From NCBI RefSeq assembly GCF_003675875.1, contig NZ_RCDI01000004.1:310001-374000 (forward strand): a stretch of DNA of 64,000 bases, in the 5' to 3' direction. The notes under the pieces were generated by a model, which ran no database searches, had not been told where the DNA came from, and was given only the letters and a program-made list of their open reading frames with translations. The translations under genes and the position numbers were made by a program. The stretch comes from Halostella limicola. GTDB taxonomy: Archaea; Halobacteriota; Halobacteria; Halobacteriales; Natronoarchaeaceae. Positions 8,353-13,466 of this stretch are shown here, piece by piece; position 1 is the stretch's first letter; every line of letters begins with the position of its first letter.

Positions 8353-8613
8353 GGTGTCCGGATGAGTTTATCCCGGAGTGACGCGTTTAGATGTGTTGCT
8401 TCCGTAGCCCTGAGTACTCTCTTCCGGCTGGAGCTCTCGTTGACCGGTTCGAACCATCCGCCAAGAGTCGTCCTCGCGTGCGGAGAAACAGCGAACTTCG
8501 AATCCGTCTGTATCTGCGCCGTACGTAGTCGCCTGCGGGATACGTACCTCGATAGGTCAGCCCGTGGACTAAACCGACACCCATTTCCTGCCCGACTTGA
8601 ATCCATCAGTGGG

Positions 8614-9198
8614 ATGCACAAAATCACGAACAGCGGGTGGGTCGAGGTGATCACCGGGTGTATGTTCTCCGGGAAGACCGAGGAGCTCCTCCGCCGGCTC
8701 CGCCGGGCCGAGATCGCCGGTCAGGACGTCGCGGCGTTCAAGCCCGCGCTGGACGACCGCTACGGCGAGGGGACCGTCGGAACGCACAACGGTCGCCAGT
8801 GGGACGCCACCGTGGTCGACCCCGAGGAGGAGATCTGGGAGATCCCCGACCATCTCAACGGCGAAGAGGTCGTCGCTATCGACGAGGCAAACTTCTTCGG
8901 CGAGGGGCTGATCGAGGTCTGCGAGCGGCTGGCGGCCGACGACCGGCGAGTCATCGTGTCGGGCACCGACCAGACCTTCCGCGCCGAGCCCTTCGAACCG
9001 CTGCCGCGGCTCATCACGCTCGCCGAGTACGTGGACAAGTATCAGGCCATCTGCGCCCAGTGCGGGGAGCCGGCGACCCGCAACCAGCGACTCATCGGCG
9101 GCGAACCCGCTCACGTCGACGACCCGACCATCATGGTCGGCGCCGACGAGTCCTACGAGGCGCGATGCCGGAACTGCCACACGCTCCGGACCGACTAG
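8614..9198 (+). CDS. tdk: thymidine kinase (type II)
   Basis: A 194-residue enzyme phosphorylating thymidine with ATP in the salvage pathway. P-loop GCMFSGKTEEL is at residues 15-25; the DEANFF motif supplies the catalytic acid; the lasso and active-site region is GTDQTFRAEPFEPL. The C-terminal zinc knuckle is complete with CAQCG and CRNCH pairs. The start at 8614 fits the family's usual first strand (WVEVITG); an upstream in-frame extension has no family resemblance. Confidence 0.92.
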   Translation: MHKITNSGWVEVITGCMFSGKTEELLRRLRRAEIAGQDVAAFKPALDDRYGEGTVGTHNGRQWDATVVDPEEEIWEIPDHLNGEEVVAIDEANFFGEGLIEVCERLAADDRRVIVSGTDQTFRAEPFEPLPRLITLAEYVDKYQAICAQCGEPATRNQRLIGGEPAHVDDPTIMVGADESYEARCRNCHTLRTD

Positions 9199-9411: not shown

Positions 9412-9936
9412 TCACGGCGAGGGAGTACTGTCGGGACGGAGGGCGGCGATCACCTCTCGGAGGCAGGCGTACTCGGAGTCGGTGTACGCGAGGACTTCGA
9501 CGTCCGTCAGCGTCGACGGATCGTGGCTCCGGACCGCTTCGCACACTATCCGCGCACCTTCGGCGAACTCGTACCCCTCAGTTCCGGTCCCGAGTACCGG
9601 GAGCACCAGCGACTCACAGCCCGCTGCCTCTGCTTTCCGTAAGGCGTTCCGAGTCGCGGCGCGAATGCTCTCCGCGGAGGCTTGTTCGCTCCCGTAACTT
9701 GGCGTGGCAGCGGCGTGAAGGACGTAGTCGGCGTCGAGGTCGTACGCGTCGGTGACGGCCACTTCGCCCAGATGGAGCGGGGTCTCGGCCCTCGCTTCCT
9801 CGGCGATCGGCCCGTCGGCCGCGCGACGGAGCGCGCTCGCGACGCCGTCCTCCATCCGCAGGTTCGTCTCCGCGGCGCTCACAAGGGCGTCCGCCTCCCG
9901 ATCGGCTATATCTCCACGTGCGGCGGAAAATTCCAT
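9412..9936 (-). CDS. macro-domain protein, diverged ligand pocket
   Basis: A 174-residue single macro domain, about half identical by eye to the copy starting at 11780. The family removes or binds ADP-ribose. The first strand (ARGDIADREADALV) and the C-terminal loop VLPVLGTGTEGYEF are kept, but positions that hold the distal ribose differ: Asn20 is Ser, Gly23 is Glu, and the Gly29-Ser30 of the sister copy are Glu-Asp. These changes would crowd or charge the pocket, so catalysis may be lost (inference). A TATA-like GTATAC lies about 25 bases before the ATG. Confidence 0.85.
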   Translation of the reverse strand: MEFSAARGDIADREADALVSAAETNLRMEDGVASALRRAADGPIAEEARAETPLHLGEVAVTDAYDLDADYVLHAAATPSYGSEQASAESIRAATRNALRKAEAAGCESLVLPVLGTGTEGYEFAEGARIVCEAVRSHDPSTLTDVEVLAYTDSEYACLREVIAALRPDSTPSP

Positions 9937-10013: not shown

Positions 10014-10024
10014 ACTTTATGAAG
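10014..10024 (+). promoter_or_regulatory. TATA box for the tRNA gene
   Basis: ACTTTATGAAG lies 32-42 bases before the mature tRNA 5' end at 10056, a usual distance for archaeal stable RNA promoters. Confidence 0.45.
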
Positions 10025-10055: not shown

Positions 10056-10130
10056 AGCGGGATGGGATAGCCCGGATATTCCGTCAGACTCATGATCTGA
10101 AGAGCGGTGGTTCAAATCCACCTCCCGCTA
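10056..10130 (+). tRNA. tRNA-Met (CAT), initiator-like body with elongator-like anticodon stem
   Basis: A complete 75-base cloverleaf. Acceptor arms AGCGGGA and TCCCGCT (10123-10129) pair fully and are followed by discriminator A; the terminal pair is A1-U72, the archaeal initiator hallmark. T arm is GGTGG-TTCAAAT-CCACC (10106-10122). The anticodon arm is TCAGA-CTCATGA-TCTGA (10084-10100) with anticodon CAT at 10091-10093. Initiators normally carry three G-C pairs next to the loop; here those pairs are A-U, G-C and A-U. No CCA is encoded and no intron is seen. tRNA-Ile2 with a modified C34 is less likely given the acceptor stem. Confidence 0.85.
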
Positions 10131-10191: not shown

Positions 10192-11532
10192 TTAGACCAG
10201 CTGGATGGTGTTCCCGTTACTCGTCACGTGCAGGTCGCGGCCTAGTTCGTACCCTTCCTGTCCGGCGAGGTCGACGTAGCCGGAGAAGCCACTCATGTCC
10301 TGGTGGGCGGGGATGACGTGCTGGGGCTGGAGCGCGTCGAGCATCTCGTAGTGGCCCTCCTGACGGAGGTGACCGGAGACGTGGACGTCGTCGTAGATTC
10401 GCGCTCCCTGCATCTTCAGCAGGCGCTCGGACTGGTAGCGCTGGCCGACGTTGGTCGGTTCCGGGATGACCCGGGCCGAGAAGATCACCTTGTCGCCGTT
10501 ATCGATCTGGTAGGGCGTCTCGCCGCGGCCCATCCGGGTGAGCATCGCGCGCGGTTCGCCCTGGTGGCCCGTCACCACGGGCAGGAAGTTCTCCTTGCCC
10601 TCCTTCATGATCCGCTTGAACGCCCGATCGACGGACTGACGGTGGCCGAACATCCCGACGTCGTCGGGGAACGGGGTGCCCAGCTTGTCGGCGGTACCGG
10701 AGTACTGCTCCATCGAGCGGCCCAGAAGCACCGGCTCGCGACCGATCTCCTTCGCGAACTCGACGATGCTCATCACGCGCGCGATGTGGCTGGAGAACGT
10801 CGTCGCGACGATGCCGCCGTCGTAGTCCTCGAGGCTCCGCATCACGTCTCGGAGTTGTTCTCGAGCGACTGCCTCGCTGGGCGTTCGGCCCTTCTTGTTC
10901 GCGTTGGTGCAGTCCTCGATGTAGCAGAGGACCCCGTTGTCCTCGCGGCCGATCTCCCGGAACCGCTTCATGTCGATGGGGTCGCCCAGCACCGGCGTAT
11001 GGTCCATCCGCTTGTCGAGACCGTACACGACTGCTCCCTCCGGCGTGTGCAGGACGGGGTTGATCGCGTCGATGATGGAGTGAGTGACGTTGACGAACTC
11101 GAGTTCGCAGCGCTCGCCGATGCTCATCGTCTCGCCCGCCTCCATCGCGACGAGCTCGTTTTCCATCTCGAACTTGCTCTCGTCCTGTATCTCCTCCTTG
11201 ACGAGTTCGAGTGTGAACGGCGACGCGACGATTGGCGCGTCGTAGCGGTGGCCCAGTTTCGTGATCGCCCCGATGTGGTCGAGGTGGCCGTGGGTCGGTA
11301 CGATCGCTTTCACCTCGCCTTCGAGGTCGGACATGATGCGGTCGTCGGGGATCGCGCCCATGTCGATCAGGTCGAGGCTGTGCATCTGCTCGGTTCGAAC
11401 GTTGTCGTGAATCAGTACCTGGGAGAGGTTGAGTCCCATGTCGAAGATGACGATGTCCTCGCCCGCACGGACGGCAGTCATCTGGCGGCCGACTTCCTCG
11501 TAGCCGCCGATAGTTGCGATTTCGATTTCCAT
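10192..11532 (-). CDS. rnj: archaeal ribonuclease J (metallo-beta-lactamase/beta-CASP)
   Basis: A 446-residue 5'-3' exoribonuclease of the aRNase J group. The zinc site is THGHLDH, with His81, His83, Asp85 and His86; further ligands come from VTHSIID and the C-terminal [12 protein letters not shown] segment. The beta-CASP insertion (about residues 210-350) contains [18 protein letters not shown] and [13 protein letters not shown]. No KH domains are present, which separates it from the aCPSF group. It ends close to the tRNA gene on the opposite strand; a TATA-like repeat (GGTATAAATACC) lies about 160 bases upstream, so a leader is possible. Confidence 0.93.
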
Positions 11533-11779: not shown

Positions 11780-12289
11780 ATGGAGTTCACGGTCGTCCGA
11801 GGCGATATCGCGAACGAGAGCGCCGACGCGCTCGTGAACGCTGCCGGCACGAGCCTCCGGATGGGAAGCGGGGTCGCCGGCGCGCTCCGGCGCGGTGCCG
11901 GCGGACCGATCAACGAGGAAGCCGTCTCGAAGGGACCGGTGGACCTCGGCGAGGTCGCCGTCACCGACGCGTACGACCTCGACGCCGACTACGTCCTCCA
12001 CGCCGCCGCGATGCCTCACTACGGCGACGGGCGCGCGACGACAGAGAGCATCCGCGACGCGACGGTCAACGCGCTGGAGAAGGCCGACGAACTGGACTGC
12101 GAGTCGGTCGTCCTCCCGGTACTGGGGACGGGCGCGGCGGGGCACTCGTTCGAGGAGGGGGCCAGGATCGTCTGCGAAGCCGTACGGGGCTACGACTCGT
12201 CGACCCTCGACGACGTTCGGGTGATCGCGTACTCCGAGAGCGAGTACGGGACGCTCGAACGCGTCGCCGACGAAGTCCGCGCCGAGTGA
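11780..12289 (+). CDS. macro-domain ADP-ribose-binding protein
   Basis: A 169-residue macro domain with an intact pocket: GDIANESADALVNAAGTSL gives the Asp for adenine and Asn20 for the distal ribose, MGSGVAGAL is the glycine-rich phosphate loop, and VLPVLGTGAAGHSFEEG is the second loop. It should hydrolyse ADP-ribosyl esters or O-acetyl-ADP-ribose. It starts about 250 bases from the divergent aRNase J gene, with a TTTTAGAC promoter element about 27 bases before the ATG. The sister copy at 9412-9936 has substituted pocket residues. Confidence 0.9.
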   Translation: MEFTVVRGDIANESADALVNAAGTSLRMGSGVAGALRRGAGGPINEEAVSKGPVDLGEVAVTDAYDLDADYVLHAAAMPHYGDGRATTESIRDATVNALEKADELDCESVVLPVLGTGAAGHSFEEGARIVCEAVRGYDSSTLDDVRVIAYSESEYGTLERVADEVRAE

Positions 12290-12327: not shown

Positions 12328-12996
12328 TCAACGCGGCGATGTCGGACGGTGACGACCGCTCGTCGGTTGGAACTCGAACTCGAGGTGGCCTTCGGCCGTT
12401 CGGGTGACCCAGAGGACGCCGTCGACCAGTTCCGTCAGCGCCGCCATCGTCGCCTCGTCGTGGGCGGTGTAATCGACGCCGAGTATCGTGAGCCCGCTCC
12501 CGGTCCGGAGACCGATAACCCGCTCAATGACGGAGCGGACGCGGCTCATCGGGGCGTTTTCGAGCATCGGCGTCAGCGAGCGGACGACGAGGTGACGCGT
12601 TCCGCTCGACGGGAGTCGGTTGCCGTCGAGATCCGAGATCGCCAGCACCAACCGTTCGAGATCGCCTGGCGACGGCACGAACACCACCGGGGTCTCGTCG
12701 TACAGCGCGTTCAGGTACTGCCGTTCCGAGGCCGCGTCCACGATCCCGATCGACTGCGGACCGGAGTCCGTTCGGACGGCGTCGTAGGCGGCCAGCGTCC
12801 GATCCGCGCTCTCTGTCGTCGTCACGATCATCGCGGCGTCGTCGGGGCCGCCGAGTCGGTGTAGCGCGCGGAGGCCGAGCGCATACGTCGATGGTTCTAC
12901 CGTCCCCGCGATCAGCACGGTACCCGGAGCGACATCACTCGGGAACGCGTCGGCTCCCACCGTATCTCGGTCGAGCGCTTCGGTGGTTTCGTCCAC
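12328..12996 (-). CDS. DUF7504-like haloarchaeal protein (RecA-fold signal-transduction type)
   Basis: A 222-residue protein whose layout matches the haloarchaeal DUF7504/KaiC-like group: an N-terminal Walker-like strand (PGTVLIAGTVEPSTYALGLRALHRLG, in which the classic GKT loop is lost), a middle with VVFVPSPGDLERLVLAISD, and a C-terminal strand set ending GVLWVTRTAEGHLEFEF. It is probably a non-ATPase regulatory member (inference). The GTG at 12996 is chosen because the first residues DETTEALDRD follow directly after the stop of the upstream zinc-ribbon gene; translation is likely coupled. Confidence 0.65.
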   Translation of the reverse strand: MDETTEALDRDTVGADAFPSDVAPGTVLIAGTVEPSTYALGLRALHRLGGPDDAAMIVTTTESADRTLAAYDAVRTDSGPQSIGIVDAASERQYLNALYDETPVVFVPSPGDLERLVLAISDLDGNRLPSSGTRHLVVRSLTPMLENAPMSRVRSVIERVIGLRTGSGLTILGVDYTAHDEATMAALTELVDGVLWVTRTAEGHLEFEFQPTSGRHRPTSPR

Positions 12997-12998
12997 CG

Positions 12999-13211
12999 TT
13001 AGCCGTCTCCCAGCGGTCGAGCGCCGTTCGGCGTCCCGGACAGTCGTGCGACAGTTTCCTCCGGGTAATAGCGGGCCTCGCAGGCCGGGCACTCGACGAC
13101 GGTGACCTCGCCCACCCAGTCGGTCGCGACGGAAAGCTCCCGCGCGTACACCGTTCGATCGACGAGTTCTGTCCCACAGTCCGAACACGGAATATCTGTT
13201 TCCTGAATCAT
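12999..13211 (-). CDS. small double-CxxC zinc-ribbon protein
   Basis: Seventy residues with two zinc knuckles, CSDCG and CPACEARYYPEE, joined by a 30-residue strand region. The shape is that of small haloarchaeal zinc-ribbon proteins that often accompany signalling genes. It precedes the DUF7504-like gene by two bases on the same strand, which suggests a joint function. The ATG at 13211 is used; upstream in-frame sequence is Arg-rich and improbable. Confidence 0.7.
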   Translation of the reverse strand: MIQETDIPCSDCGTELVDRTVYARELSVATDWVGEVTVVECPACEARYYPEETVARLSGTPNGARPLGDG

Positions 13212-13466
13212 GGTCGTGGCGGTACGTGTTCTGGCCCGTCGCGGTTCCCACCGCTGTCCGTGGAACGGGCAGCCGGCACGGCGCATCTCAGAGCAGTGCC
13301 ATCGGGGACGAACCCGCCGTCGGGACAGACCGATGGGCGAACGAAGAAAGACGGGACCGAATCCCTATACGTTAGTCCTTTCTTCGATGAGCGTAAGTAT
13401 GTTTTGCCGCTTCCGCCGCGCCGCACGGTCGACTGGTCTCGGTCGCGCGGCGACCTCACCGCCCCG

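Follow-up and report, generated by a model that had tools for sequence, protein, structure and literature searches.

Judged from its sequence, the variant tRNA gene of Halostella limicola described here is an extra, accessory and structurally maintained initiator-type tRNA, and it is one of a scattered family of extra initiator genes in several haloarchaeal genera. Most of these sit on accessory replicons, in plasmids and islands, and many are accompanied by a paralogous RNase J and other duplicated genes for RNA handling. It is rather probably a usable second initiator, called tRNAi2 below, which folds and would have a weaker grip in the P site. The surprising parts, so far as sequence comparison goes, are the repeated link with an accessory RNase J, the untouched G30-C40 pair, and a genus in which a G37 initiator is the only one found. 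The window, meaning the whole 64,000-nucleotide stretch of DNA that was analysed, is part of a contig of 449,505 bp (C5) in a 4.12-Mb genome of 9 contigs that is 99.9% complete. C5 is probably a secondary replicon: of the 44 tRNA matches to Rfam in this genome it has one, and two Orc1/Cdc6 genes lie on it. The features discussed are collected in Table 1.

Table 1. Features around the variant tRNA gene, in window positions.
Feature	Position	Strand	Evidence
TTTATG, a TATA-like box and possible promoter element, some 40 nt before the tRNA	10016..10021	+	Inferred by eye
Variant initiator-type tRNA gene, anticodon CAT	10056..10130	+	ARAGORN; Rfam RF00005; 84% identity to this genome's canonical initiator
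Anticodon arm TCAGA-CTCATGA-TCTGA (stem strands 10084-10088 and 10096-10100, loop 10089-10095)	10084..10100	+	Sequence; comparison with 12 other variants and 11 canonical initiators
RNase J2, a paralogue of RNase J, convergent with the tRNA gene, 61 bp apart	10192..11532	-	TIGR00649, 420.9 bits (cut-off 400); PF22505
Macro-domain protein upstream of the tRNA; block membership unsure	9412..9936	-	PF01661, E 3.3e-23
Second macro-domain protein	11780..12289	+	PF01661, E 3.2e-26
DUF7504 protein	12328..13251	-	PF24336, 44.7 bits

The variant gene and its canonical counterpart

ARAGORN finds a single tRNA in the 64-kb window, a tRNA-Met(cat), and the Rfam tRNA model scores it at 61.0 bits (E 9.4e-11; gathering score 29). 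The initial annotation had described an initiator-type body, and the sequence bears this out: the acceptor stem is AGCGGGA/TCCCGCT with A1-U72, the T-arm is GGTGG/CCACC, and acceptor, D-arm and T-arm are together of the haloarchaeal initiator type, with the anticodon CAU. The anticodon stem had also been read correctly as TCAGA/TCTGA, with A-U, G-C and A-U next to the loop; its five pairs are U27-A43, C28-G42, A29-U41, G30-C40 and A31-U39. The statement that the three G-C pairs of archaeal initiators are lacking holds for two of the three and overstates the case, because the central G30-C40 remains, the only G-C pair among them. A second anomaly, absent from that annotation, is the G at position 37 (10094). 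A37 is present in all 11 distinct canonical haloarchaeal initiators compared, which were collected with a search pattern that itself required A37, and a canonical core with A37 is also held by 386 of 391 genomes. We presume that G37 would exclude t6A and that the modification at this position is probably m1G.

Neither of two other classes of tRNA-like gene fits. The broken stems or truncation of a pseudogene are not seen, all 20 stem pairs being standard and the score being 61 bits, and the body is not the G1-C72-type elongator body of a tRNA-Ile2 (CAU). A CAU gene whose body is of elongator type, and which we take to be tRNA-Ile2, lies elsewhere in the genome, at C3:997174-997248.

The canonical initiator of this genome is at C3:62114-62188 (G000), has the anticodon arm GCGGG CTCATAA CCCGC and is 84% identical to the variant. 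With a canonical gene present, the variant is rejected as the sole altered initiator of the lineage. In each of the other four Halostella genomes the variant query gives one full-length match, which is a canonical gene in all four, so the variant is found in one of five. The initial annotation had left a choice between a lineage that tolerates an altered initiator and an extra variant gene; the former fails for Halostella and survives for one other genus (g14, below), where the only initiator found is non-canonical, while the latter stands and extends to a family in several genera. The search for a canonical gene elsewhere, which that annotation had proposed, marks the variant as a spare, one whose fold is kept and which belongs to a recurrent, mobile-looking set.

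A separate observation concerns the canonical genes. Of 40 distinct canonical initiator loci, 22 repeat the 3' tail of their tRNA within 700 bp downstream (mostly 90-140), while reverse-complement and reversed-tail controls give 0 of 40. The repeated tail is 19 nt long with at most 4 mismatches, mostly 0, and follows a stretch of about 100 nt; some loci have two or three tandem units. Examples are L030 (the canonical Halostella initiator, G000:C3), L061, L065, L076-L079, L102 and L103. An 18-row alignment has the tail paired with an upstream GTGGATTTGAA arm; the upstream half of the element appears hairpin-like by eye and falls outside the 18-row consensus fold. One locus was checked against Rfam and gave no match for the element. 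The candidates are a mini-element that targets the tRNA end and a structured trailer RNA.

Initiators across Halobacteria

The canonical core pattern is found in 386 of 391 Halobacteria genomes. The five genomes without it are G019 and G044 of genus g14 (99% complete) and G098, G370 and G394 (89-91% complete). The G37 pattern is matched in 7 of 391 genomes, a count for forms with TAGCC, since the pattern demanded it; forms with TAGCT were found by the pattern in which position 29 is not G. The latter pattern (A29 forms) is matched in 6 of 391 genomes, and the two sets overlap. Given these frequencies, the variants appear to be additions to the canonical gene, genus g14 excepted.

The two g14 genomes (loci L101 and L100) are about 2.1-2.2 Mb each, and in both the sole match to the canonical query, at E values up to 1, is a gene with the stem CCGGC/GCCGG and G37. 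Its third pair is inverted (C31-G39) and three G-C pairs are kept. As far as the search shows, this G37 gene would be the only initiator of the genus, and G37 alone therefore looks compatible with initiation. Since g14 retains three G-C pairs, it is no proof that the stem in the window works.

A family of extra initiator genes

Ten named plasmid records carry a similar gene. The carriers include Haloplanus sp. HW8-1, Halorussus limi, Halorussus aquaticus, Halomicrobium urmianum, Haloarcula sinaiiensis, Halarchaeum sp. CBA1220 (two plasmids), Halococcus dombrowskii (two) and Salinibaculum sp. KK48, whose copy is degenerate. Some copies lie in plasmid tRNA arrays, with seven further tRNAs on Haloplanus sp. 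HW8-1 unnamed2 (L179:58-1158) and ten on Salinibaculum sp. KK48 unnamed2 (L185:4930-8512). No report of a plasmid-borne or second haloarchaeal initiator was recognised in the open-licence literature, subscription papers being mostly outside the search, and one initiator-like pattern gave 0 matches among the viral contigs of IMG/VR.

The nearest relative of the Halostella variant is in Halegenticoccus soli (NZ_PEND01000003.1), with 6 differences in 75 positions. The differences include changes in two pairs: C27-G43 in Halegenticoccus is U27-A43 in Halostella, changed on both sides, and the wobble pair G31-U39 is A31-U39. Loops among the lines of extra genes are CTCATGA, CTCATAA, CTCATAT and TTCATAT, with the anticodon CAT in all. 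The plasmids p02 and p03 of Halarchaeum sp. CBA1220 (L180, L181) have the stem CTGGG/CCCGG and the loop CTCATAT.

A gap-free alignment was made of 13 distinct 75-nt variants, each set of identical genes being represented once; the degenerate Salinibaculum gene and the Halococcus pair of 74 nt were left aside. Standard pairs occupy all 260 cells (13 variants by 20 stem pairs). Double-sided changes are seen in 8 of the 20 pairs, against a shuffled mean of 2.3 with 0 of 500 shuffles as high and 0-2 in slid controls, in a test that ignores the relatedness of the 13 variants. Pair 29-41 is A-U in seven variants and G-C in six; pair 31-39 is G-C in eight, C-G in two, G-U in two and A-U in one, the window gene. 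Pair 30-40 is G-C in 13 of 13, A1-U72 is likewise kept in all 13, and G37 is present in 11 of 13. The anticodon arm within the family has drifted under constraint, with 29-41 and 31-39 varying together with their partners and 30-40 never; of the 13 stems compared, that of the window gene is the weakest, yet it is unbroken.

Gene neighbourhood

The Halostella genome has all four of the elements in question: the variant with its nearby RNase J paralogue, and elsewhere the canonical initiator and a further RNase J (G000:C4:600508-601845). Neighbours were tabulated for 22 extra loci, 9 kb on each side where available; Halarchaeum p03, whose tRNA is the same as that of p02, and Salinibaculum lie outside this table. 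RNase J is within 9 kb in 14 of the 22 loci, and in 11 of these 14 the two genes converge, with 136-563 bp between the tRNA start and the nearer end of RNase J. Several of these loci are near-copies (four of Halorussus type, the Haloplanus/G304 pair and the G318/G253 pair), so that independent lines are fewer, about seven. The eight loci without RNase J are Halarchaeum p02, two in Halococcus, one on the Halomicrobium chromosome, two in g44 and two in g14.

Other partners recur less regularly. A HisI-like gene (phosphoribosyl-AMP cyclohydrolase, NF000768 164.9 bits) adjoins the tRNA in 10 of 22 loci, and in the Halostella window no such gene is present between the tRNA and RNase J. A TFS-like gene is near the tRNA in 10 of 22 loci (TFS_arch 38.2 bits, under the cut-off of 64.75); in named plasmids these genes are annotated as RNA polymerase subunit M. 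Relatives of the downstream macro-domain protein are near a variant tRNA in 4 of 21 other loci, and relatives of the DUF7504 protein (cluster 4) in 6 of 21. In the window itself the tRNA and RNase J2 lie between the two macro-domain genes, of which the downstream one has a weak DarG-like PADLOC match (26.4 bits), and a thymidine kinase gene (8611-9198; PF00265, 157.7 bits) is close to the tRNA. In Halarchaeum sp. CBA1220, p02 carries a plasmid-borne aCPSF1 117 bp from the second initiator tRNA, and p03 also has an RNase Z.

RNase J is present in all 13 genomes searched, in two or three copies in 12 and in one copy in G001, which has no variant tRNA. A tree of 35 RNase J proteins, in which the Halomicrobium plasmid copy is entered twice and which leaves out the G253 chromosomal copy and one H. 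pelagica duplicate, separates 22 of 23 accessory rows from the 12 chromosomal rows at a support of 92/91, below the tool's star; the remaining accessory row, a long one, falls outside the accessory group. Nine accessory rows (eight distinct records) have no adjoining variant tRNA, including the closest one, from H. pelagica. The RNase J2 on this Halostella pelagica plasmid (CP040679.1) is a close one (93%), yet neither the variant nor a tRNA remnant was seen beside it; the pair can therefore be split. We infer that RNase J2 is a wider accessory gene of which the tRNA is a frequent, not obligatory, companion. Two other origins for the block were considered and rejected: the flanks (about 1.5 kb) of seven chromosomal RNase J loci are without the block's other genes, which speaks against a segmental copy of that region, and no strong PADLOC match among ten window proteins points to a defence island.

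Possible function

If tRNAi2 is a second initiator, it would be transcribed, carry methionine, bind aIF2 by way of A1-U72 and enter the P site chiefly through G30-C40. Compared with the canonical tRNA, it would initiate less strongly and perhaps with lower selectivity, serving as a backup or under particular conditions. Toeprinting in Pyrococcus abyssi is reported to show that the preference of the initiation complex for the initiator follows the three G-C pairs (available text of PMC6237735), so a stem with A29-U41 and A31-U39 may be taken up poorly. For the archaeal 30S complex, the A-minor contacts are described as using pairs 29-41 and 30-40, with uS13 and uS19 touching G30; the central pair, G30 above all, is the most crucial according to work in E. 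coli, and the authors note agreement (available text of PMC7005279). The Halostella tRNA keeps both this central pair and the purines at 29-31.

A redundant copy in slow decay, acquired with the accessory block and held under relaxed selection without a job, is a possible though unlikely account of the same gene. The window stem is the most changed of the family, a CTTATCC/CTTAATT-like box near -30 that is common in relatives is not recognisable by eye upstream of the window tRNA (25 loci), the variant is missing in all four other Halostella genomes and around the RNase J2 gene of H. pelagica, and a clearly degenerate relative exists on the Salinibaculum plasmid. A decaying gene should break pairs, however, and this argues against decay: all 20 pairs are standard, and the differences from Halegenticoccus at U27-A43 and A31-U39 keep the pairing. 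That the gene is an elongator methionine tRNA is scarcely tenable; the loss of two G-C pairs would remove a P-site feature of initiators, but A1-U72, the D-arm and the T-arm are those of the initiator, and the 84% identity is to the initiator as well.

Other readings concern what the tRNA is for. With an altered anticodon arm, a spare initiator could escape a ribonuclease of the anticodon loop (VapC, MazF or viral) by which the canonical one is cut, and so sustain initiation during an attack; this proposal seems improbable here. VapC is reported to act on initiator tRNA (PMC4105405, in the text available), other extra copies alter loop positions 32 or 38 while CAU is kept, and on the Haloplanus plasmid a pair of MazF genes and seven further tRNAs lie close to the copy. 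Non-canonical bases in the 13 variants occupy 9 of 14 anticodon-arm sites (anticodon excluded) and, in the rest of the molecule, 17 of 58 (Fisher p 0.027); as this excess is post hoc and uncorrected for relatedness, it is a lead only. Set against it, Pfam and PADLOC give no toxin gene among the ten window proteins beyond the one weak DarG-like macro match, and MazF near the tRNA recurs only in Haloplanus and G304 (clusters 26-27), whereas the widely recurring partner is RNase J. Altered start selection, in which the weak stem and G37 would steer the tRNA towards leaderless or non-AUG starts on some mRNAs, perhaps the messages of the accessory replicon, is very unlikely. Inversion of 30-40 in E. 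coli is reported to lower discrimination against CUG (available text of PMC11497404), which shows a link there between stem grip and codon choice, and G37 is shared by most of the family (11 of 13), but the E. coli effect is seen at 30-40, the pair that is unchanged in Halostella. Decidedly speculative is the idea that the accessory blocks are a replacement kit for gene expression, spread by haloarchaeal accessory replicons, that reroutes or takes over initiation and RNA decay under stress or attack. As one part of it, with the same doubt attached, the second initiator would go with the second RNase J (aCPSF1 instead in the Halarchaeum plasmids), the TFS-like gene and sometimes RNase Z; as another, no less speculative, the altered anticodon arm would make the spare initiator resistant or selective, and in g14 the G37 initiator would have replaced the canonical one.

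The second-initiator reading matters because initiators are taken to have the three G-C pairs nearly without exception, and because in archaea these pairs are regarded as the feature that the initiation complex recognises. The natural series relaxes these pairs stepwise, from three G-C through G-U at 31-39 and A-U at 29-41 to A-U at both, with G30-C40 untouched. It occurs in culturable haloarchaea beside canonical controls, so the question of which G-C pairs are needed becomes testable in vivo. RNase J, as the recurrent neighbour, gives a handle on why accessory replicons carry extra initiators.

Comparison with known systems

The Halostella variant shares with the canonical haloarchaeal initiator the A1-U72 acceptor, the D-arm, the T-arm and CAU. 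It differs in having A-U, G-C and A-U for the three G-C pairs and G37 for A37, and in its place on an accessory contig near RNase J. Ayyub et al. are said to have described in 2018 unusual initiator tRNAs of mycoplasmas, reportedly with departures in the three G-C pairs in what is there the main initiator. These are likewise natural departures from the usual form, whereas that of Halostella is in an extra gene beside a canonical one, and in archaea. The plasmid tRNA arrays of Haloplanus sp. HW8-1 and Salinibaculum sp. KK48 are likewise extra haloarchaeal tRNA genes with an initiator type among them; unlike these, the Halostella copy is the only tRNA gene of the window. The “3GC mutant” initiator of E. 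coli (U29-A41/C30-G40/A31-U39) is reported as inactive in initiation (available text of PMC10486304). Both it and the Halostella variant have A31-U39, and both have an A-U-type pair at 29-41, flipped in E. coli, but the mutant inverts 30-40 while the Halostella tRNA keeps G30-C40.
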